Source of the DNA: Nitrososphaeraceae archaeon
GTDB taxonomy: Archaea > Thermoproteota > Nitrososphaeria > Nitrososphaerales > Nitrososphaeraceae
Length of the DNA: 10,785 nucleotides
Direction: 5' to 3'
Assembly: GCA_030038695.1 (NCBI GenBank)
Contig: JASHSN010000494.1
Location: 1 to 10,785 of the forward strand
In this document: positions 1 through 9,870 of the stretch, piece after piece
Position numbering within the stretch: position 1 is the first letter of the stretch
How the letters are laid out: the number at the start of each line of letters is the position of its first letter
Program-made: the position numbers and the translations under genes
The notes under the pieces: model-generated
Seen by the model: the letters and a program-made list of their open reading frames with translations, nothing else
Database searches by the model: none
Told to the model about the DNA's origin: nothing

Positions 1-570
1 TCAACTCCGCTTCAATATAAAACAATATTAGTACCTCACGATGGGTCTACGATGGCGGATATTGCTCTAAAACATGCTATTTACTTATCAAATTTATCTG
101 GAGCCGAAATTATCATCCTAAACGTGCTCGAACATGTTGATAGCGTTGACTCTAGCGCTGTATTGATCACTAGTAGACACGGAAATGAAACAAGAAATTA
201 TGAAATTAAATTAGAAGGAGAAGTAAAAAACATGGTAGATGAGAAAATAAGATTATGTAAACAAGCTGGACTGAAAGGTCAGGTGTCCTATAAAATACAA
301 ACTGGTAAGCCAGCTGAAGAAATAATTAAGGTTTCAGAAGAAATGAACATTGATCTATTAGTAATGGCTAGCAGTAAAGATTCTTCATTGGTAAGTAGGA
401 TTGTTGGAAGTACGGTCAGAAGAGTTGTTGACAATGTTAAAAATCCAGTACTTATTGTAGACCCGAAACATTACAAAAACAATGAGAAAGAATATGACTC
501 AACCAAACAATATGAAACTAGTGAACGAATGTCTCATGCTAACACAAAAGAAGAAGAACTAACTGCTTAA
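1..570 (+). CDS. Universal stress protein (UspA family), 5' end outside window
   Basis: The frame is open from base 1 and reads STPLQYKTILVPHDGS, the first beta strand and conserved Asp-Gly-Ser of the Usp fold, so the true start lies just upstream; the ATG at 52 is internal. The fold continues to the last strand NPVLIVDP. UspA proteins are small cytoplasmic dimers that bind ATP or other ligands and help cells survive stress; archaeal genomes carry many copies. The usual nucleotide loop is G-x2-G-x9-G-S/T. Here the matching stretch is A-S-S-K-x9-G-S: spacing is kept but the first two glycines are Ala and Lys, so ATP binding may be lost or changed. A charged, Lys/Glu-rich tail of about 35 residues follows the domain, making the protein longer than the common 140-160 residues. 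No co-directional partner gene is close by. Family assignment is firm; the ligand is unknown. Confidence 0.93.
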   Translation, partial: STPLQYKTILVPHDGSTMADIALKHAIYLSNLSGAEIIILNVLEHVDSVDSSAVLITSRHGNETRNYEIKLEGEVKNMVDEKIRLCKQAGLKGQVSYKIQTGKPAEEIIKVSEEMNIDLLVMASSKDSSLVSRIVGSTVRRVVDNVKNPVLIVDPKHYKNNEKEYDSTKQYETSERMSHANTKEEELTA

Positions 571-902
571 AGAAACCTCGGACTTGGCTTAGCTAAATGA
601 GACTGGGACATAATTCCATGTTTTCATTTTGCCAACTTCTATTGATAATTTAGTATAAAGCTAGCCTAGGGTGTCTAGTGTTTTGGTGACTAACGATCAG
701 ATTCACCCAAAGAAGGCTAGCCGCAATAAGTACTTCAGAATCCATCTTCGTCATCTTACAACAATGCCTCTTAACCCAGCTTAGTATACTACAACTACTA
801 TGGATATTGTGAAATGGGCACAGCATCAGGGTATTACTGTTCAAAACAATAACTTATTCAGTCGTTATATGCAAAGTTTTATGAATCAGAATCATTGTAT
901 GG
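571..902. other. Non-coding or fully decayed stretch after the usp gene
   Basis: No convincing gene is seen on either strand. A 35-codon plus-strand frame (800-907, beginning MDIVKWAQHQG) has ordinary composition but no ribosome site, and runs into the SDR remnant in another frame. An 8-base inverted repeat, gctagcct at 660-667 and aggctagc at 714-721, has a 46-base gap and is probably weak. A T-rich tract at 618-630 could end usp transcription. Confidence 0.5.
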
Positions 903-985
903 TTTGAAGAGGAGTTTGCCTCTGATGACAGCAGTTTTGTCACCGGTATAGAACTGTTCGTAGATGGGGTCAGGCACAAATCTGA
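903..985 (+). pseudogene. C-terminal remnant of a short-chain dehydrogenase/reductase
   Basis: From 915 the frame reads FASDDSSFVTGIELFVDG, the hallmark C-terminal segment of classical SDR enzymes (LASD-x-SS-F-V-T-G then VDGG). At the G-run near 966-969 one base appears to be missing: adding one G continues the reading as G-Q-A-Q-I followed by TGA at 983-985, a normal SDR ending. As it stands the frame instead runs on to a stop near 1020. Nothing upstream resembles the Rossmann fold, the Tyr-x3-Lys site or the NNAG motif, so only about the last 25 residues survive. It differs from the end of the intact SDR at 2011-2763 and is not a simple copy of it. Likely a deletion relic. Confidence 0.75.
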
Positions 986-1021
986 TAGCTTCTTCCGCCA
1001 CCAAACAGACATCAAGCTCTG

Positions 1022-1559
1022 ATAGTAGAATCGGATAAACAAAACATAACCGAACTACTCAGAAAAAGGTGGAACCCTTATGTTCATAGACATTCCGCAT
1101 TTACAGAAAAGTCTAGGTTGTTATCCTCAGATGCAAAGTTGAGGCAATTCGCTGGTTGGACGCCTCGCTCGAATATGCATTACAAGTACGTTCATTTTGG
1201 CGGCGGCGAATCAATGAAGGATTTGTTTGAGGGTAAAAGGTATTCTGAAAGATGAGAAGCAGTCAACAAACATATTACAACCCAAAATCTGTCCTAATTG
1301 CAGAGAATCTAACAAGCCAGATGCACAATTTTGCTTCAAGTGTAATTTCGTAATGTCATTTGAAGTTTATCAGAAGGGTATGGGAGAGAGGGAGAAGAAG
1401 GACCAGGAGTTGCAGAGTCTTCGTAATGAGCAGCAGATGTTGAAGGAGCATATGGCCAAGATGGAGGAGTCGCAGCTGAAGATCACAGAGCTTTTAGAGG
1501 TGATGAAAATAGCAAAATCCAGCTATGGCATGGTAGGCAAGGATAGGAACAATGCTTGA
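1022..1559 (+). pseudogene. C-terminal part of a tyrosine recombinase (integrase) with zinc-ribbon tail, frameshifted
   Basis: Two frames join into the C-terminus of a thaumarchaeal-type site-specific integrase. The first, open to TGA at 1253-1255, reads SDKQNITELLRKRWNPYV, then RHSAFTEKS, LRQFAGW and KYVHFG: the helix before the active site, the Arg-His-Ser box, the Trp that replaces the third-box His in many recombinases, and the nucleophile Tyr in Y-x-H. Around 1221-1240 the frame shifts by +1 and continues as GILKDEKQ, then a zinc ribbon CPNC-x10-CFKC, then a Lys/Glu/Gln-rich coiled coil ending at 1559. The SAM-like N-terminal domain and the first catalytic Arg are missing; the sequence before 1022 is an SDR remnant. 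The enzyme is therefore inactive unless rescued. The frame from TTG 1227 could still make a zinc-ribbon/coiled-coil protein of 110 residues. Confidence 0.8.
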
Positions 1560-1659
1560 TGAAAAACGCAGGGTGACGATCGGGTACGTGGACAATAATA
1601 ACCAGAGAGTAGAGATGAAAGTTCCAATCGATGGGTTCGAGATAGATGAAGGTCAGTAG
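1552..1659 (+). CDS. Small hypothetical protein overlapping the integrase tail
   Basis: A 35-residue frame begins at an ATG inside the last codons of the integrase tail (shared bases ATGCTTGA) and reads MLDEKRRVTIGYVDNNNQ, then VEMKVPIDGFEID. Composition is protein-like, with alternating beta-type residues and no low-complexity stretch. The overlapping start is typical of translational coupling, which would link it to the recombinase as a partner. It is short and I recognise no family, so it may be a chance frame or a remnant. Confidence 0.3.
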   Translation: MLDEKRRVTIGYVDNNNQRVEMKVPIDGFEIDEGQ

Positions 1660-1980
1660 TAATCTTCCTAAACGCAGGACGCAGAAATTATTATATGGTT
1701 TTTAGCGCTAGTTCCTATGTCCAGTAAGTAAACACCAGAAGAATACAAAGTGGCAAAGAATCTTGCAATATAAGGTTATGTATAGAAGCCTAATGCTGAC
1801 GAAGGATGACATATCCGGATAAGAAAAGTATGACTTCAATGTGGGGCGAATTCATCTGACTACCATATACACCAATTATACCACACAAGAGAAGGGAGCC
1901 TAATAGGCATGCAAAACACGGAGACCTGTTTGTAGTATCAAACCCAGCTGTCCATCATTCGGACTATTAGTACCGCTAAC
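1660..1980. other. Non-coding gap before the SDR gene
   Basis: All frames are rich in stops and I see no RNA gene, repeat or recognisable gene remnant. It separates the integrase remnant from the intact SDR and may be decayed mobile-element sequence. Confidence 0.4.
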
Positions 1981-1990
1981 GATAAATAAT
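1981..1990 (+). promoter_or_regulatory. Probable TATA box of the SDR gene
   Basis: The A/T stretch gataaataat lies about 21-30 bases before the GTG at 2011. This is the archaeal TATA-to-start distance, so the transcript would be leaderless or nearly so, in line with the lack of any Shine-Dalgarno site. Confidence 0.45.
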
Positions 1991-2010
1991 GCAAGAACAA
2001 TTTAAAACAC

Positions 2011-2763
2011 GTGACGGATCAAAAAGTTGCGATCGTAACAGGTGCTAGTTCTGGCATTGGAAGGGCAACCGCAGTTGCTCTTGCAAAACAAGGAGTTAAG
2101 GTCACGGTAGCCGCCCGTCGTGCTAAAGAAGGAGAGGAAACAGTGCATCTTGTCAAGGAAGCGGGAAGTGAAGGCATCTTTGTGAAGACCGATGTGGCAA
2201 ACGAAGATAATGTCAAGTCGCTTGTAGAAAAGACAGTCAAGAGATATGGTAGGCTTGATTATGCATTCAATAATGCAGGTGTGGTAGAAGATCCTTCATC
2301 ATTAATAGAACAGACATCAAATGTCTTTGATCAGATCATGAATGTAAATGTCAAAGGCGTTTGGTTGTGTATGAAATATGAGATTCCTGAGATGATTAGA
2401 TCGGGAGGTGGAGCAATAGTAAACACGTCTTCTGGAGCCGGTGTAATAGGAATTCCACAACAGCCAGTTTATAGTGCGAGCAAACATGCTGTGCTTGGAA
2501 TGACCAAATCAGCTGCACTAGAATATGCCAAATCTGGAATCAGAATAAATGCTATTGCTCCAGGTTTAGTTGAAACTGAAATGCTTGAAGAAGTAGCTGA
2601 AGACAACAAGCAGCTTATAGAAAGCCTTAAGTCAAAAACACCGATAGGACGCATAGGAGACCCACAAGAGATTGCTAATGCAGTAGTTTGGCTATTGTCT
2701 GACAAAGCATCTTTTGTCTTAGGTCATACGTTATTAGTTGATGGGGGAATAGTTAGCCGATGA
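2011..2763 (+). CDS. SDR family NAD(P)-dependent oxidoreductase
   Basis: A complete classical short-chain dehydrogenase of 250 residues, the family's usual length. Visible motifs in order: cofactor loop TGASSGIG (10-17); Arg36-Arg37 after the second strand, which favours NADP(H); Asp61 near the adenine; NNAG (87-90); structural Asn113; and the catalytic set Ser141, Tyr154 and Lys158 (Y-S-A-S-K). The C-terminus has the usual VDGG. These enzymes oxidise or reduce alcohol/keto groups in the cytoplasm; the sequence does not show which substrate. GTG at 2011 is the first start after an in-frame stop at 1987-1989, and the protein begins normally there. No ribosome site is seen, and a TATA-like box sits at leaderless distance. 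Neighbours are gene remnants, so there is no operon context. It is the healthiest gene between the two decay zones. Confidence 0.95.
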   Translation: MTDQKVAIVTGASSGIGRATAVALAKQGVKVTVAARRAKEGEETVHLVKEAGSEGIFVKTDVANEDNVKSLVEKTVKRYGRLDYAFNNAGVVEDPSSLIEQTSNVFDQIMNVNVKGVWLCMKYEIPEMIRSGGGAIVNTSSGAGVIGIPQQPVYSASKHAVLGMTKSAALEYAKSGIRINAIAPGLVETEMLEEVAEDNKQLIESLKSKTPIGRIGDPQEIANAVVWLLSDKASFVLGHTLLVDGGIVSR

Positions 2764-3500
2764 TTAGTTCTAAGGGGATCAATTGTCGATAAAATATCAA
2801 ACAACTTAGATAATATTCCATTGAGATAGATCAGACGATTTATTACAGCTTTCCCATCCTGCAACAGCTTAGTCCAACAGTTTAGTCGAACATATTCAAT
2901 CTGGGAAAATTTACCATTAGGCTTGGCATATTAATCATTAGTACCAGCTCGATAAGATATCTTGGCAAGAGCGATAAGATAATGTGCGACCTTTCTTCGA
3001 AAGATCTATCAGATAAATATCAAAAAGACTGACCTATTTAACTAAAGACGGGGACAGAATCCTATACACTCTTTTTCCTAGATGATGATAATGCACAAAG
3101 TATACAGTAGGTTGACCAGTTTAACAAAAATAGCGAAGAGAAGTTAACCGAACATAATTCAAAACTAAACTTCCAGACGGGTGCTTAATCAACTACACAT
3201 CCGTTAGTTAATTTGTTATGCGCGGATTGTCCATCCTAGTACAGATATTTTCAATGGTCAGATAACACATCCGAAAACCACTCTATTTTGCATAATCATC
3301 CTTAGCGATATACTTTCCGGCTGCTCGTACCAGTCCGGTTATTTGGTTGTATAATGGTGTATGAACAAGCATTTCAACTCGTCGCGTCAGATATACACAA
3401 AGTAACGAGTCCGAACTTGATAGTTGCGACGGAAATAATCTAGATCGTTGTGTTATGTGGATTAATAGTTTTGACATTTACGATGTGGCGGTCAACGTGA
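2764..3500. other. Long non-coding or decayed stretch
   Basis: About 740 bases with no convincing gene on either strand; a 64-codon minus-strand frame (3283-3477) has no family signature. A 10-base direct repeat cgataagata occurs at 2950-2959 and 2972-2981 (period 22). The missing N-terminal half of the hydrolase at 3501 would be expected here, but I could not find its nucleophile motif (G-H-S-x-G) in any frame. Confidence 0.45.
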
Positions 3501-3932
3501 GCAAAAGAGGGACAAACTGAGAACACAGCTAAGAATTCGCCTTCTCCGAAAGTCTTCGAGGGAAAACCTGTCCTGATCTTCGATAAGTCCGGATTCGCGT
3601 ACGTAAACCCAGCTATATACCATGATTTTATTGTTCAAGATGTTGATCAAGCTCAAGCTAAAGTCCTGGCTGCTGTGCAGAAACCAGCTAATGTATCAGG
3701 CATACTAAACGAAAAATCTGGTTCTCCAGCTTGGAAGCAACTTCCGACATGGTATCAGGTGTCTGAGAACGACCACGTTATCCCTCCTGCTGTCGAACGC
3801 ATGTTCGCAAAAGAGATGAATGCTACTACTATCTCACTTCCATCTAGTCATGCTTCGCTCATATCCCACCCATATGAGATTGCCCAATTAATCCTAAATG
3901 CCACAAAAGGAATCAAAGTAGCAATGCCATAA
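3501..3932 (+). pseudogene. C-terminal half of an alpha/beta hydrolase, N-terminus lost
   Basis: The frame is open from 3501 (after TGA at 3498-3500) to TAA at 3930-3932, about 143 residues, but has no start codon before a GTG at 3675. It reads GKPVLIFDKSGFAYVNP, AQAKVLAAVQKP, then PAWKQLPTWYQVSENDHVI and PSSHASLISHP. This matches the second half of secreted EstC/pyrethroid-hydrolase-like alpha/beta hydrolases common in soil Thaumarchaeota. The catalytic Asp (in S-E-N-D-H) and catalytic His (in S-S-H) are present. The oxyanion strand HGA and the nucleophile elbow G-x-S-x-G, which lie in the first half, are absent, as is any signal peptide. A protein made from GTG 3675 (85 residues) could not be catalytic. 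The conserved half is undamaged, so the truncation may be recent. Confidence 0.85.
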
Positions 3933-3999
3933 GGAGGACTCATTTGAGCTTCTGTTTAAAAGCTGTTGACTAACACTAACACCTAATCTGAGTCCAAGC

Positions 4000-4040
4000 G
4001 CCTGCCTCATCTTGGAGTGTAGATCTGATATGAGGCAGGC
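4000..4040. repeat. Perfect 11-bp inverted repeat (hairpin)
   Basis: gcctgcctcat at 4000-4010 pairs exactly with atgaggcaggc at 4030-4040 around a 19-base loop. Seven of the eleven pairs are G-C, so the RNA hairpin would be stable. It lies about 70 bases after the hydrolase remnant stop. No T-run follows, so it is not a typical archaeal terminator. It could be a structured RNA element or a site for a dimeric DNA-binding protein. Confidence 0.6.
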
Positions 4041-4233
4041 AGGTTGTCTATCTCAGCAGCAGAGAGTTTAAGTTTAAAAGGATTATGAGTTTGGAAGGGT
4101 GGAATTTTCCATGGCAGCCTGTTCAGGGTTCCATACTTGGGAGCCGGAGAGTAATAACGAAGGGAGCATTGTTGTGGCAGGGAGAGACCATTGTGATACA
4201 AAAGTTCTTCTCATAAAGGCATGTGAATCAGGC

Positions 4234-4257
4234 GAACTTCGAGAGGATTCGAAGTTC
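4234..4257. repeat. Perfect 9-bp inverted repeat, tight hairpin
   Basis: gaacttcga at 4234-4242 pairs with tcgaagttc at 4249-4257 around a 6-base loop (gaggat), extendable by a G-T pair. The short loop makes this a plausible RNA hairpin or an operator-like dyad. Confidence 0.55.
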
Positions 4258-4314
4258 TGTCAAAACATCGAACACGTAGAACACACTTGACCTGGCTGAA
4301 ACCATCTACTCCTT

Positions 4315-4354
4315 TCTTTTCCTACCCACCCTGGTCTAGTCTTTTCCTACCCAC
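4315..4354. repeat. Duplicated 15-mer in a C/T-rich tract
   Basis: tcttttcctacccac occurs at 4315-4329 and again at 4340-4354, a 25-base period with a less similar spacer. Surrounding bases are also C/T-rich on the plus strand. No third copy is seen. It lies in the gap after the hairpins, with no gene in either direction for about 250 bases. Confidence 0.6.
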
Positions 4355-4598
4355 TCCAACACATCAACTCAAAATGCTAATTTTTAGGTGAAAAGCTTGC
4401 CAAATATGGTCCAAAAAGCGATCTAGTGTAGATGATGAGCGTATATTTTAAATGGAGACGCTCAATACTTCGTGAACCCTAACCAGGCAATCTATAACTG
4501 GAGATAGGTAGTCTACGAATTCTCTTCTTCCGGTCTAACAGATAAACCCAATTTACCCTCCTTCTTATGATTTAAAAATCCTAACCGCTTAGACCACA

Positions 4599-4610
4599 GA
4601 AAATAAAAAT
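4599..4610 (-). terminator. T-rich tract ending the membrane-protein gene
   Basis: On the minus strand the bases just after the stop at 4612 read ATTTTTATTTTC. Archaeal RNA polymerase commonly stops at such oligo-T runs without a hairpin. Confidence 0.4.
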
Positions 4611-4611
4611 G

Positions 4612-5145
4612 TTAATTTCGATTGTATTTGTACGTCGTTCTTATTTTACTTTTTGAAATCAGATAAAATCCGTGTGCGGAGATAAGAAATGCAGATAGAG
4701 TCATTTGTGTTGCAAATATCAGATTCCATGGTGTCTTGGGATTGGGATATGGTATGCTTATGCTATCCAGCTTATATACTCCTTTTACTAAGTTGGCTGT
4801 CGCAAAAGAATTCCATAAGAAAAAATTGTAAGTGAATTCATATATAGCAATCACTGCAATAGCTAGCATAATCAGTTGTAAAGCAGATTTAATTGACTGA
4901 GGGATATTTTTCATTTTGTCTCCCGTGAATTTAGTAACACAAAACCATGACAATACAGAAGCAATCATCAGATATGTCACAAGCTTAGCATGACTGTGTA
5001 ACGGAAATTCAGTATTGACTAATACTTCACCAATGACTATCCTACCAGTCTTCAGATATTCTACAACGCTTATATAAAGTCCGAATAAACAAATAAGTAA
5101 CATAACCGTGGCCGAAAGATAAAAAGTAATAATGAAGACATTCAT
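4612..5145 (-). CDS. Four-helix membrane protein of unknown function
   Basis: A 177-residue protein with four hydrophobic segments at roughly 3-29, 54-72, 86-110 and 142-164, and basic residues at the C-terminal end (KSKIRTTYKYNRN). Between helices 1 and 2 lies a short polar loop with an H-S-H motif; between helices 3 and 4 is a soluble loop with several Pro/Tyr (SIPYPNPKTPW). I do not recognise the family. It could be a small integral membrane subunit or sensor, but nothing proves a role. The start ATG at 5145 is preceded by AAAGGATG about 8 bases upstream and by a TATA-like box at 5206-5215. The gene follows the small Cys/His protein (5194-5406) on the same strand with a 48-base gap, so the two could be co-transcribed, though this gene seems to have its own promoter. 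Confidence 0.8.
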   Translation of the reverse strand: MNVFIITFYLSATVMLLICLFGLYISVVEYLKTGRIVIGEVLVNTEFPLHSHAKLVTYLMIASVLSWFCVTKFTGDKMKNIPQSIKSALQLIMLAIAVIAIYEFTYNFFLWNSFATANLVKGVYKLDSISIPYPNPKTPWNLIFATQMTLSAFLISAHGFYLISKSKIRTTYKYNRN

Positions 5146-5193
5146 TGACTTTCATCCTTTTCAGAACCGAATTGCATAATTGCTAGATCCTAA

Positions 5194-5406
5194 TTAGAGA
5201 TGACTGATATAAAAATTCCTTTTTGCTTTGTAAGTTGATCTGTAGTACTTCCTGTCAGGCACAAAGCTCTTACATCGACATTTATAAATTAAACATTTCA
5301 TCTTGTCTCTCGCAGCAGTTCTATCGTGATCAATCTTTTGATGCTTACATTTTATACACTTAAGAAGCAGATCGGATTCGCTATTCATTGTTATTACATT
5401 GTACAT
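5194..5406 (-). CDS. Small Cys/His-rich (zinc-binding type) protein
   Basis: A 70-residue protein with the pattern CIKCKHQKIDHD, then KCLIYKCRCKSF: a C-x2-C-x-H-x4-H half followed by C-x4-C-x-C and a closing Phe. Small proteins with this C..C-x-H...H...C-x-C-x2-F layout are frequent in Thaumarchaeota and are expected to hold one zinc; the role is unknown, perhaps nucleic-acid or protein binding. The C-terminus is basic and aromatic. Two starts are possible: ATG 5406 (MYNVITMNSES) or ATG 5388 (MNSES). A TATA-like element on the minus strand at 5423-5431 (TTATAAAAA) predicts transcription from about 5400, which favours the shorter form. The gene is divergent from, and possibly overlapping, the plus-strand secreted-protein gene. 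Confidence 0.7.
   Translation of the reverse strand: MYNVITMNSESDLLLKCIKCKHQKIDHDRTAARDKMKCLIYKCRCKSFVPDRKYYRSTYKAKRNFYISHL
5206..5215 (-). promoter_or_regulatory. Probable TATA box for the membrane-protein gene
   Basis: On the minus strand this reads TTTTTATATC, a good archaeal TATA box, some 60-70 bases before the ATG at 5145. It would give a leader of roughly 35 bases carrying AAAGGATG. It lies inside the last codons of the upstream gene. Confidence 0.45.
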
Positions 5407-5409
5407 GCC

Positions 5410-5624
5410 TTGTTTTATTCGGTTTTTATAATCACTCTTGTTTCATTTGTATTAATCGGTACAGTTCAAGGTCAAGAAGAAAACGACACGACGCCCACCG
5501 TACACATGAAAATAGGTAAGTCTACGACCCGGACCAATACAGATGTATTTTACCAACGAATCCTCAGGCTTACGATTGTTTTATTGTACAGATGGTTGAA
5601 GCATGTTCTAAAAAAATGAAATGA
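5410..5624 (+). pseudogene. Small secreted protein, apparently frameshifted
   Basis: Frame 1 (stop at 5617-5619) encodes a hydrophobic signal-like segment LFYSVFIITLVSFVLIG, then TVQGQEENDTTPTVHMKIGK, with likely signal cleavage near VQG/QGQ. Its downstream reading then turns unusually hydrophobic and basic (LRLTIVLLYRWLKHVLKK). In frame 3, from 5520 to TGA at 5622-5624, the same DNA reads VYDPDQYRCILPTNPQAYDC then FIVQMVEACSKKMK, which looks much more like the C-terminus of a small thaumarchaeal secreted protein with Cys pairs. I infer one gene with a frameshift near 5510-5520. The start is uncertain: TTG 5410, or ATG 5341, which would overlap the minus-strand gene by 66 bases. No clear promoter is seen. 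It may be a pseudogene, a sequencing error, or two unrelated frames. Confidence 0.4.
5423..5431 (-). promoter_or_regulatory. Probable TATA box for the small Cys/His protein
   Basis: TTATAAAAA on the minus strand lies about 17-27 bases before the ATG at 5406 and 35-43 before the ATG at 5388. It falls inside the signal-peptide codons of the opposite-strand frame. Confidence 0.35.
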
Positions 5625-5732
5625 TTAATATCTTGTTTGTACATGGCTCGACGATTGCTTTGACGGAACACTGGTCAGCCAAAAGACTTATAATTCCCAC
5701 AGTTTCGCCAGCCTATCTCTTCCTTCCTGCCA

Positions 5733-6023
5733 TTATAACAAAATTTGATTTATATCATTGATCTCTCTGATAATGTTTGGACCGTACATATCTCTCATTT
5801 TTGTAGCATATGTCTTCAAAGAGTCTCCGTCAGGATGCGCCCAACCTTCCTTCGTTGGCCTCCAACCCATTGAAAGCATCACAAGACCATTGATACAACA
5901 TCCTTTAACCTGCCCTTGATCGTCGAAGCTCACATATGACTGGATGTGTTAATATTTCCAGGAATTTTTGTCGATGATGTCTAGAATCTCTTGTTTTGGA
6001 TCTAACATCAGTTTTTGTAACAT
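5733..6023 (-). pseudogene. Small hypothetical protein gene with an in-frame TAA
   Basis: On the minus strand the frame starts at ATG 6023 (or 6008) and reads MLDPKQEILDIIDKNSWKY, meets TAA at 5949-5951, and continues in the same frame as HIQSYVSFDDQGQVKGCCIN, LVMLSMGWRPTKEGWAHPDG, then MRDMYGPNIIREINDINQI to TAA at 5733-5735. The two parts form one sensible protein of about 96 residues: an N-terminal helix, a central G-C-C-x-N-G core and a C-terminal helix. The arrangement (helix plus Trp, then a Cys-containing Gly-rich strand, then E/D-rich N-D helix) faintly resembles DUF6197-type small proteins, but I would not assign it. A good TATA box lies 25-32 bases before ATG 6023, supporting that start as leaderless. 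A shorter protein could also begin at GTG 5933 (66 residues). Confidence 0.55.
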
Positions 6024-6047
6024 AATTGTAATGATAATGATTATTAA

Positions 6048-6055
6048 GATATAAA
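6048..6055 (-). promoter_or_regulatory. TATA box of the in-frame-stop gene
   Basis: TTTATATC on the minus strand, centred about 28 bases before the ATG at 6023, with no Shine-Dalgarno site between. This is the classic spacing for a leaderless archaeal transcript. Confidence 0.5.
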
Positions 6056-6331
6056 CCGTCGTTATTAATAATGATGTTATATTGTTAACAAGATTATTAA
6101 CAAGCAATTACTACATGCTATATATATTAAAATCTCTATGGACACCTAACGTAAATTTCTCCGACAGCAACAAAGTCTTTCAAACTAGGGAAATTCCAAT
6201 TCCACCTACGTGTCGACAGAAATCGATCATAGTTAGGGTATATAGCTTGTATCAAGTATATTAGTAAAGAGAGACTAAAATGTTCTACGGTTGTAGGACA
6301 AGCATAACTGATTAAAACGTAGATATTCGGG
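6056..6331. other. AT-rich intergenic region upstream of the HNH gene
   Basis: Overlapping plus (6082-6264) and minus (6136-6348) frames lack any family feature and I treat them as chance. Several TATA-like stretches occur (for example tatatatatta near 6118-6130 and aagtatatta near 6253-6262), but none sits at leaderless distance from ATG 6332; attaaaac at 6311-6318 is somewhat too close. Confidence 0.4.
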
Positions 6332-7009
6332 ATGACTAGCATTAACAACAGCGAGACAAAGGTAGGACACGTAGTTCTATGTGTACTGATTTACAGTACA
6401 TTCCTATTAGCAATTGTGTTCGGGGATCAAAATCTGTATGCATTATCTTCACTGGATCGGCATACTGGTGGATTCTCACATGGAGAGCAACAAGCGGCAA
6501 TAGACTTCCAAAATAAGATACCGTTCAACCCGGTATGTGTTGCACACACCACTTATTACTGTGCTGGCTATTTTAAGGCATATGATGTTACATGGAATAA
6601 TCTAGCGACTAACAGGCAGACATCAAATCCTAGTCCTAATCCTCCTGCTTCCAATTCTACTAGGACATTGCCTCCTGCTTCTAATAGTAACGTTACTGCC
6701 ACTCCTACTATTATTCCACAACCACCGACATATACTTGGGTTGCATTCATTGTATTTCTCCTTATCCTGATTGTTGCAATAGCATGGAAATTAAAACCCG
6801 AAAATGGAAAGCATAAAGAAAGACATCATTTTCCTGATCACCTTAAGGAAAAGGTTCTCGAAAAACAACATCATAGATGTGCTGATTGGAATAATGTATT
6901 GAATGTAGTTGATTGGCATCATAGAAATGGCGACAGGTCTGATAACAGAGAATCAAATTGTGTAGCATTATGTCCCAATTGTCACGCAATTAAAATCCGT
7001 AGACATTAA
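6332..7009 (+). CDS. Membrane-anchored protein with C-terminal HNH nuclease-like domain
   Basis: A 225-residue protein in four parts. (1) A signal or anchor helix at about 12-31. (2) An extracytoplasmic part at about 32-95 with F-S-H-G-x3-A-A-x-D (48-58), Cys69 and Y-C-A-G-Y-F-K-A-Y-x3-W (76-88), a pattern like small secreted thaumarchaeal proteins; Cys69 and Cys77 could form a disulfide. (3) A Pro/Ser/Asn stalk (96-133) with a repeated PPASNS and glycosylation-type N-S-T and N-V-T sites. (4) A second helix at 134-152 followed by a basic turn, then an HNH-type domain (165-225). The domain shows DWHHRNGDRSDN (194-205), Asn209 and LCPNCH (213-218), the beta-beta-alpha metal fold of HNH endonucleases. 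The first zinc knuckle is reduced to C-A-D-W (183-186), one Cys instead of two. Predicted topology puts the nuclease in the cytoplasm. Substrate and role are unknown. Confidence 0.82.
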   Translation: MTSINNSETKVGHVVLCVLIYSTFLLAIVFGDQNLYALSSLDRHTGGFSHGEQQAAIDFQNKIPFNPVCVAHTTYYCAGYFKAYDVTWNNLATNRQTSNPSPNPPASNSTRTLPPASNSNVTATPTIIPQPPTYTWVAFIVFLLILIVAIAWKLKPENGKHKERHHFPDHLKEKVLEKQHHRCADWNNVLNVVDWHHRNGDRSDNRESNCVALCPNCHAIKIRRH

Positions 7010-8763: not shown

Positions 8764-9870
8764 TTATCCAGATGGAATAGCTTCAATAATGCTTAGAAAG
8801 TTTACAGGATCAGGTGATCGTATTACGTTAACCATGTCGAAACCAGAACCCTCAAGTAGGTTACGAAACTCTTTTTCAGTTCTTATTCTTCCTTTATCAG
8901 TTAGTGCTAGCATTAATATATCTGTAAATTTCCCAATAAAAGGTTCACTAGATTCTGGCATGATTATGTCAATAACTAATAATCTTATGTTGTTCTTTCG
9001 TTTAGTCTTATTTGATGATGTAGTTTTTATAGCTTGTAAACAATTTTTCAAGATTACCCCGGCATACTCATCATCCCAGTTTAGAATTACATTCTTTATG
9101 ATATAACCGTCTGCATCTACAGCAGGAATCGACTTGAAGAAGTCACCCTCTATTAATTTGCAACGGGCAAGAATATCACTATTGTTATCCTTTGAATTCG
9201 CACCCTTAACATACATTCTCTTGGCACTCTCGATTGCGTGAGGCAGATCAAATAGTATTCCCTGCAGTCTAGCATTATTCTTTAGAATAGTCGATAATAA
9301 CATACCTTGTCCTCCCCCTATATCTATAATAGTATTAAATCTTGAAAAATCATACATAGATAATATTGATGAAATGTGTGATGAGGTGAGTGAGGTCATT
9401 GCACTATTGAATATTTGAGCATCATTTTGATTTTGTTGTATGTACTCGTATATATCCAAGCCATTTGCATGTTTAAATGAACTGTCGCCAGTTTCTATGC
9501 TATACAAGAGGTCATCTATAGCTTTCTTAAATGATTCTAATCCAAACAACAGAGCAAAGTTTCTTACTGAATCTTTTGTTTCGGATAAGAGGAGGGATGC
9601 CAAAGAGGTCAGTTCGAATCTCTTATGATTAGTATGCTCTTCTACTACCGCTCCTTTTGTTTCTGCAAATATATCAATGCTAGCCAGCATGCGCAATAAC
9701 CTATAAAGAGAATTAGGATGGGTCCTAGTCTCTTTTGCCAGTTTTTCTATGTCTTTAGGACCATCATTTAAATAATCGGCTATTCTCAATTTTGCAGCGA
9801 TATAGATAGCCTTACTAGTTAGTTGTCCTCTAGTGAGCATATCAAGGATTATAAAAGCTGAGCTTCCCAT
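8764..9870 (-). CDS. SAM-dependent O-methyltransferase (Methyltransf_2/COMT type)
   Basis: A 368-residue enzyme with both parts of the family. The N-terminal winged-helix dimerisation domain (about 10-95) shows the typical LRIADYLNDGPKDIEKLAKE and HPNSLYRLLRMLASIDIF. The C-terminal Rossmann domain has the SAM loop DIGGGQG (183-189), FDLPHAIESA (207-216) and EGDFF (241-245). The family transfers methyl groups to hydroxyls of small aromatic or polyketide-like molecules in the cytoplasm; the substrate is unknown. In the active-site segment, normally V-L-H-D-W-D-D-E, this protein has V-I-L-N-W-D-D-E: the catalytic His is Leu263. It may therefore use another base, act on an acidic hydroxyl, or be inactive. 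A Lys/Asn/Ser-rich insert at 282-294 is unusual. ATG 9870 is supported by a TATA box at 9898-9904, so the gene is probably leaderless and alone. Confidence 0.92.
   Translation of the reverse strand: MGSSAFIILDMLTRGQLTSKAIYIAAKLRIADYLNDGPKDIEKLAKETRTHPNSLYRLLRMLASIDIFAETKGAVVEEHTNHKRFELTSLASLLLSETKDSVRNFALLFGLESFKKAIDDLLYSIETGDSSFKHANGLDIYEYIQQNQNDAQIFNSAMTSLTSSHISSILSMYDFSRFNTIIDIGGGQGMLLSTILKNNARLQGILFDLPHAIESAKRMYVKGANSKDNNSDILARCKLIEGDFFKSIPAVDADGYIIKNVILNWDDEYAGVILKNCLQAIKTTSSNKTKRKNNIRLLVIDIIMPESSEPFIGKFTDILMLALTDKGRIRTEKEFRNLLEGSGFDMVNVIRSPDPVNFLSIIEAIPSG

Follow-up and report, generated by a model that had tools for sequence, protein, structure and literature searches.

The gene at positions 6332–7009 (+) of a 10,785-nucleotide contig from a Nitrososphaeraceae archaeon (JASHSN010000494.1 of assembly GCA_030038695.1; this whole stretch is called the window) was found, by sequence comparison, to be a member of a family of membrane-tethered HNH proteins that belongs to ammonia-oxidising archaea and their kin. 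The reading that we favour, with a probability of about 0.45, is that of a nuclease tethered at the inner face of the membrane, which would cut DNA on its entry in the manner of the bacterial system SNIPE and would use its exterior part as an adaptor. The window gene encodes 225 amino acids between an ATG start and a TAA stop, and its product contains, in order, a signal helix, a small cysteine-containing outside domain, a stalk, a transmembrane helix, a basic linker and an HNH domain (Table 1). The open reading frame (ORF), its coordinates and this order of parts agree with a preliminary description of the window.

The tethered layout was followed in 166 members, which were obtained from 229 collected proteins through 214 that matched the module model and 195 with a complete HNH core, followed by deduplication on the last 150 residues. 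A hydrophobic helix (mean hydropathy of at least 1.6) immediately preceded the HNH core in 159 of them, with the caution that the search profiles themselves include this helix. In the 15 residues on each side of the helix, the mean count of Lys and Arg was 6.5 towards the HNH core and 0.64 towards the outside, and they were more numerous on the HNH side in 158 of the 159 members. This excess places the HNH core, by prediction, in the cytoplasm, as had been proposed for an HNH domain tethered behind an extracytoplasmic part. The distance from the helix to the conserved Phe that opens the core had a median of 14 residues (5–95% range 10–16; extremes 6 and 41), and thus the core would be held against the membrane. 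Near the N terminus, a further hydrophobic helix was present in 106 of the 134 members having more than 75 residues before the helix. Weaker matches were also seen in most genomes of the window's family; most of them started past the helix columns, in frames roughly 80–150 amino acids long, and the only one checked for the helix (L012) was without it. Glycosylation sequons in the outside parts showed no enrichment beyond noise.

The HNH nature of the core was supported by profile searches, key residues and fold. The window copy matched HNH families of PHROGs (E 2.6e-5) and the ZorE models of PADLOC (E 1.9e-5, over about 30–50 C-terminal residues), and it stayed below the Pfam cut-off for PF01844 (16.5 bits against 21.4, E 0.0093). 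The same Pfam cut-off was cleared by the tethered relative L128 with 22.2 bits, and Pfam HNH reached E 0.01 in 5 of the 72 members of alignment A2. All seven key residues, that is four Cys and the H-N-H triad, were kept in 154 of the 166 non-redundant relatives, and the positions of His197, Asn209 and His218 were conserved in 164, 163 and 162 of them, respectively. The window copy holds all three H-N-H residues but only three of the four zinc cysteines of the two knuckles. In a structure model of the intact relative L043, the core had a mean predicted local distance difference test (pLDDT) score of 88.2 and two strands followed by a helix, which is the beta-beta-alpha fold, and the closest structural matches to a core of this type were HNH-fold proteins. 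The profile of the family itself matched IscB, GVE2 HNH and ScoMcrA weakly. Alignment A5 consisted of 43 of 59 segments (that of L043 being two residues longer) and the window segment; as the PDB matches of its profile were partly due to the rows from bacteria and viruses that it contains, profile A3, which is cleaner, was used in addition. Furthermore, the ratio of nonsynonymous to synonymous substitution rates (dN/dS) was lower in the HNH core (0.11–0.37) than in the outside part (0.23–0.71) in all 12 pairs compared, which are not independent of one another. The HNH part is under purifying selection. These results together bear out the HNH-type core of the preliminary description.

The exteriors, in turn, are replaced and diverge fast. 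They were classified in members with at least 60 amino acids before the helix (138 of the 166, or 133 after omission of P0070, P0077, P0093, P0109 and P0110), and the 133 exteriors fell into 18 classes at a BLAST E of 1e-6 or lower and into 15 classes at 1e-4. The classes had no detectable similarity to one another, with the membrane-HNH module remaining constant. Exteriors of PsbP_2 (P0095) and PKD (P0129) type passed Pfam cut-offs, and others were small cysteine domains or several membrane helices. The PsbP-type P0074 and P0067 were 89% identical in the HNH core and differed in their exteriors, and L002 and P0072 (a short frame) were 92% identical in the HNH part with no match between the exteriors. 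On a quick tree of the 74-column HNH core, at least 27 changes of exterior class were counted, where 18 classes require a minimum of 17, an excess that is only suggestive because the tree is short and weak. At the syntenic locus of Nitrosocosmicus-type genomes, exteriors of different classes were 15–23% identical, the cores 56–62% and the neighbouring proteins 40–87%, so that the exterior diverges to background level even at this locus; one pair within class C06 was 26% identical there in the exterior and 67% in the core. When the outside domain of P0028 (residues 50–114) was used as a query, 18 of the 19 candidates were family members or their fragments. Secreted-looking proteins without HNH in the genome of the window (L005, L010, L011 and L013) also carry the Cys/Tyr/Gly outside domain or similar parts, an exterior module of these archaea, and the exteriors thus appear to be drawn from the secretome. 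One of the HNH-less proteins among L005, L010 and L011 carries tandem repeats that look TPR-like by eye.

In the proposed mechanism, the outside part would reach the cell surface behind the signal helix, and one transmembrane helix with a linker of ~14 residues would hold a zinc-stabilised HNH core at the inner face of the membrane. So short a tether would allow the nuclease to act only on membrane-adjacent DNA and would spare most of the chromosome; together with the conserved HNH site and the replaceable exterior, it suggests a nuclease that would be directed to its target by location. The DNA cut while crossing the membrane would be that of virus genomes in the first place and of rival mobile elements in the second, and the outside part would act as an interchangeable adaptor, by which the nuclease is positioned or set free at specific sites of entry. 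The layout would suit a guard against incoming DNA; nuclease activity, membrane DNA as its substrate and the purpose of defence are what we infer. A defence role is plausible, and the replaced, fast-diverging exteriors together with one casposon-borne copy fit it without proving it. The wider proposal, that these proteins form an unrecognised surface-to-DNA defence family of ammonia-oxidising archaea, which evolved independently of bacterial SNIPE, is sometimes carried by casposons and cuts entering foreign DNA through a constant HNH and a replaceable adaptor, is put forward tentatively and with the odds against it.

The closest case that has been studied is SNIPE. According to its description (PMC13190303), SNIPE is anchored in the E. 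coli inner membrane and cuts phage DNA at injection, its untethered form is toxic to the chromosome, and the nuclease is its most conserved part whereas the variable N-terminal part is thought to be an adaptor. The likeness to SNIPE consists of a single polypeptide with a transmembrane anchor, a conserved cytoplasmic nuclease (here by prediction) and a highly variable N-terminal part. SNIPE differs in its GIY-YIG nuclease, in the presence of DUF4041 and in homologues that were tallied in bacteria, whereas the archaeal family has an HNH core, a signal helix and an extracytoplasmic domain. A Pfam scan of the window protein gave no GIY-YIG family at E up to 1 and no match to DUF4041, and a search of the genomes for DUF4041 was uninformative as no control genome matched. 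The archaeal family is thus not a member of SNIPE, and the best reading is that it works in a similar manner. A review groups Zorya, Kiwa and SNIPE as membrane-location-dependent systems (PMC12904381).

ZorE, the HNH endonuclease of type II Zorya, resembles the family in the core: the PADLOC ZorE models matched 29 of 30 diverse members (best E 3.9e-10), albeit over only about 30–60 core residues in the window copy and P0002. No ZorA-type MotA/ExbB motor (PF01618) was found in the window's genome, which is 78.5% complete, in a search whose control matched in 8 of 14 genomes; with no motor gene found, membership in Zorya was rejected. McrA-type nucleases (EcoKMcrA, 6ghc; ScoMcrA, 5zmm) and the phage GVE2 HNH (5h0m) resemble the family in the HNH core, the zinc knuckles and the H-N-H residues, but in the archaeal family the core comes after a transmembrane helix. 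Scans with profile libraries detected no modified-base reader domain, which a divergent outside part could hide.

The family was found to be widespread. The helix-plus-HNH profile had matches at E of 1e-6 or lower, the weaker kind included, in 91 of the 300 genomes taken from the order, and in a phylum-wide draw 23 of 398 genomes matched at 1e-8. Strong matches (E of 1e-20 or lower, starting at model position 8 or before) occurred in 28 of the 70 genomes of the window's family and in 8 of a second archaeal family, f9, with none in the genus coded g12. Members with the tethered layout were present in Nitrosopolaris, Nitrosocosmicus and f9, and the earlier view of it as rare was not supported. 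L014 and L043 have one and the same protein, by which the genus coded g1, that of the window, is placed as Nitrosopolaris. The named records with matches were Candidatus Nitrosopolaris, Nitrosocosmicus, Nitrososphaera sp. AFS, Nitrososphaeraceae/Nitrososphaerales and some titled Nitrosopumilus. Among the 15 loci fetched from f9 (L128–L142), the helix stood before the HNH core in 13 and was absent in L129 and L141, the protein of L141 being that of L061. A scan of genome contigs with a single protein found no relative, and an alignment-based scan gave 33 loci, of which ten were bacterial (L066–L075, E 6e-7 or weaker) and represented another HNH kind. An origin as a virus gene was not supported, as the 22 loci from a scan of viral contigs were HNH proteins without the tethered layout (E 4e-7 or weaker). 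Fusion of two genes by an assembly error was also rejected, since 52 of the 108 listed proteins match the window protein at the thresholds given in Table 1 and many genomes have this HNH module joined to other outside parts. Some database entries call for care: the proteins of L052 and L053 (titled Nitrosopumilus sp.) and L056 (Nitrososphaera sp. AFS) recur unchanged in genomes with the codes f1/g2 and f1/g1, so these titles may be wrong or outdated, and P0020 (Candidatus Nitrosopolaris sp.) lies on a contig of 7,409,497 bases, which exceeds every genome tabulated (0.8–4.9 Mb).

Annotation recognises the family only partly: ‘HNH endonuclease signature motif containing protein’ is the name of some members at NCBI, and the label at JGI is mostly ‘hypothetical protein’. 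No description of tethered HNH proteins in these archaea was found in a literature search judged by titles and abstract openings, with preprints and most subscription work outside its scope, and a term search for HNH or nuclease in PMC10117904 gave no match; within the literature searched, the membrane part and the changing exterior had not been put together. The family-level observation is more interesting than first described, the window gene being one copy, in a soil ammonia-oxidising archaeon, of a widespread family. If the favoured reading is true, the ammonia-oxidising archaea, as drivers of nitrification in soils and seas, would possess a tethered DNA-entry nuclease of their own, the same solution having been reached from a nuclease fold other than the bacterial one. 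It would also support a general rule, in which a nuclease is tethered at the entry site and the adaptor is swapped, and would provide a short list of genes to test.

The window copy itself departs from the family at position 186, where it has Trp and 163 of the 166 relatives have Cys; its closest listed relative, P0001 (89% identical), retains the Cys. As the remaining zinc cysteines and the H-N-H residues are present and the relatives are intact, the degeneration is at the level of the copy and not of the family. Thus, the degenerate first knuckle noted earlier was real for the window copy, with Cys183 present and Trp186 confirmed, but was not a feature of the family. Likewise, a binding-only domain fails as an account of the family, given the retention of all key residues described above, and may hold for the window copy. 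The loss of one of four zinc ligands has probably weakened or impaired this copy. Its own genome contains a near-full paralogue with all four Cys (L002, contig C185), a paralogue with the first Cys lost (L003, contig C53) and several fragments of the gene, some of them at contig ends. This genome is a fragmented assembly of 679 contigs, 78.5% complete and 5.1% contaminated, and some of its copies could therefore be foreign. Three partial records from one public Nitrosopolaris assembly (WBZ36 tags P0065, P0079 and P0080) also suggest several copies or remnants per genome. L002 and L007 have the gene and about 100–115 bp upstream in common with the window, L003 matches within the gene only, and L002 and L009 have a further 307-bp upstream stretch in common (89%) at differing distances. 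No element boundary was seen round the window copy, and no downstream flank was common to the copies, several of which stop at contig ends, where a common flank could not show.

It is quite possible, at somewhat less than even odds, that the window copy is a decaying paralogue with no present function, which is compatible with any reading of the family. The lost zinc cysteine, the fragments and the second damaged copy in the genome all fit decay, and so does the AlphaFold model of the window protein. This model, made with an alignment of 72 rows, was good for the signal helix, the outside domain (block means of pLDDT 79–87 over residues 51–90) and the transmembrane helix and poor for the HNH part (mean pLDDT 59.7, block means 45–63). 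However, the frame is otherwise open and full-length, the HNH dN/dS against its paralogues was 0.16 and 0.26, albeit averaged over time before any decay, and a base error in the metagenome could yield the same TGG.

Partner genes were surveyed at 43 anchored loci, some of which are the same stretch fetched twice, using ORFs of at least 80 amino acids and the best 30 of the clusters present in at least three loci. No partner gene recurred across groups, in agreement with the single-gene arrangement first proposed, and the recurring neighbours mostly reflected synteny within groups (Nitrosocosmicus-type loci; L045/L046/L053; L058–L060; L134/L138/L139). In a PADLOC scan of neighbours, 175 of the 381 ORFs at 40 loci lay within 2.5 kb, and 149 of the 175 were scanned; 36 models matched at E 1e-5, and each of the 25 listed did so in one ORF. 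The matches included Cas1 and AbiU, which were located at L128 and L061 by inspecting 30 of the 149 ORFs singly, and mad3. The AbiU-like gene of L061 (3876–5591, +; PADLOC E 2.1e-42) lies near an untethered HNH relative.

The absence of a common partner bears on a different role, in which the protein would be a receptor at the surface and its HNH part, once freed or switched on, would cleave or bind DNA or RNA of the cell itself, as a signalling or suicide effector and not as a direct guard. The receptor-like layout and the exchangeable exteriors agree with it, and two tethered members of f9 without the H-N-H histidines (L139 and L140) could be pure binders. We regard such a receptor as doubtful, since H-N-H is kept in nearly all members, the ~14-residue linker gives little reach and no neighbouring gene recurs across groups. 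The two f9 proteins (L139, 5965–6630; L140, 159–1016, in coding orientation) keep the tethered layout and the zinc cysteines and have the core His replaced by Tyr and the last His by Tyr or Phe, and are apparently non-catalytic versions. The exterior of L140 is Ig-like by eye, with no Pfam match.

DotN of the Legionella type IV coupling complex is an adaptor protein, and it stood, with this complex, among the best fold matches. The HNH-like domain could then be a structural zinc adaptor that holds a membrane complex without cutting. This is unlikely, because the positions of His197, Asn209 and His218, needless for a scaffold, are conserved as described above, and the archaeal family is set apart from the DotN adaptor by keeping them. 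A surface part combined with a nuclease predicted at the cytoplasmic face would also be expected of an enzyme of DNA uptake or processing, for transformation or for DNA as food, where the exterior captures DNA and HNH nicks it on arrival, and two exteriors are domains of secreted proteins (PsbP-like and PKD). Such a role appears quite unlikely: no Competence/ComEC (PF03772) was found in the window's genome at its 78.5% completeness (control matched in 10 of 14), though archaeal uptake could use other proteins, and a housekeeping enzyme of uptake would give little reason for its exteriors to be replaced.

One tethered member was found inside a mobile element. At L128 of f9, the HNH gene (6256–6867, −) overlaps a Cas1 gene (5189–6259, −; PF01867 E 4.6e-49) by 4 bp, the starts being uncertain, and genes for a family-B polymerase (PolB; PF03175 E 2.3e-25) and a DOT1-like methyltransferase are nearby. 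Inverted repeats of 87 nt at 471–557 and 6892–6978, 95% complementary, bound this casposon-like element of about 6.5 kb (471–6978), and flanking direct repeats lie at the 3' end of another gene. The element fits the thaumarchaeal casposons of family 1; HNH nucleases are listed for some of these in the casposon section of PMC6563490, without mention of a membrane part. L130, the sister of L128 on the tree, had no Cas1 among its scanned neighbours and had a HEPN-like neighbour below cut-off. As casposon cargo, L128 suggests that members can travel and that their setting is conflict between elements, which favours the entry-nuclease reading and a role within mobile elements alike and so leaves the odds of both unchanged. 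That the module belongs to casposons or similar elements and helps them to move, the chromosomal copies being what they left behind, is very unlikely despite the L128 element and the published casposon nucleases, as Cas1 was found in only 1 of the 149 neighbour ORFs at 40 loci, Nitrosocosmicus-type genomes carry the gene at one conserved chromosomal locus, and transposition offers no evident use for a signal helix and an outside part.

Table 1. Parts of the membrane-tethered HNH gene and its upstream stretch, in window coordinates.
Feature	Position	Strand	Basis
Whole gene	6332..7009	+	225-aa ORF; 52 of 108 listed proteins match at ≥59% identity over ≥80% of the query (two are own-genome paralogues, some truncated)
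Upstream stretch of ~100–115 bp common with own-genome copies	6215..6331	+	L002 match from 6229, L007 from 6215
Signal/anchor helix, residues 7–34	6350..6433	+	AlphaFold helix 7–34; hydropathy
Outside domain, residues 38–97, class C01	6443..6622	+	AlphaFold helices 48–60 and 74–96; Cys69, Cys77
Pro/Ser/Asn/Thr stalk, residues 98–133	6623..6730	+	Sequence; pLDDT <50 for 98–132, modelled as disordered
Transmembrane helix, residues 134–153	6731..6790	+	AlphaFold; hydropathy
Short basic linker, residues 154–166	6791..6829	+	4 Lys/Arg among the 15 residues that follow the computed helix window, none among the 15 that precede it
HNH domain, residues 167–225	6830..7006	+	Zinc Cys183, 214 and 217; H-N-H as His197, Asn209 and His218
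Codon TGG, residue 186, Trp replacing the second zinc cysteine	6887..6889	+	Sequence; comparison with relatives

Rfam scans gave no match. Upstream of the HNH gene and on the opposite strand, the region 4612–5406 (−) encodes a hydrophobic protein of 177 amino acids, for which no Pfam, NCBIfam or PADLOC match was obtained at E 1, and a cysteine-containing protein of 70 amino acids. An apparent remnant of an alpha/beta hydrolase lies at about 3495–3932 (+); its front part is missing, one frame is open to the end, and the last 85 amino acids match PF12697 weakly (E 1.7e-4, below cut-off). On the other side of the HNH gene, positions 8764–9870 (−) encode an O-methyltransferase with a dimerisation domain (PF00891, PF08100).
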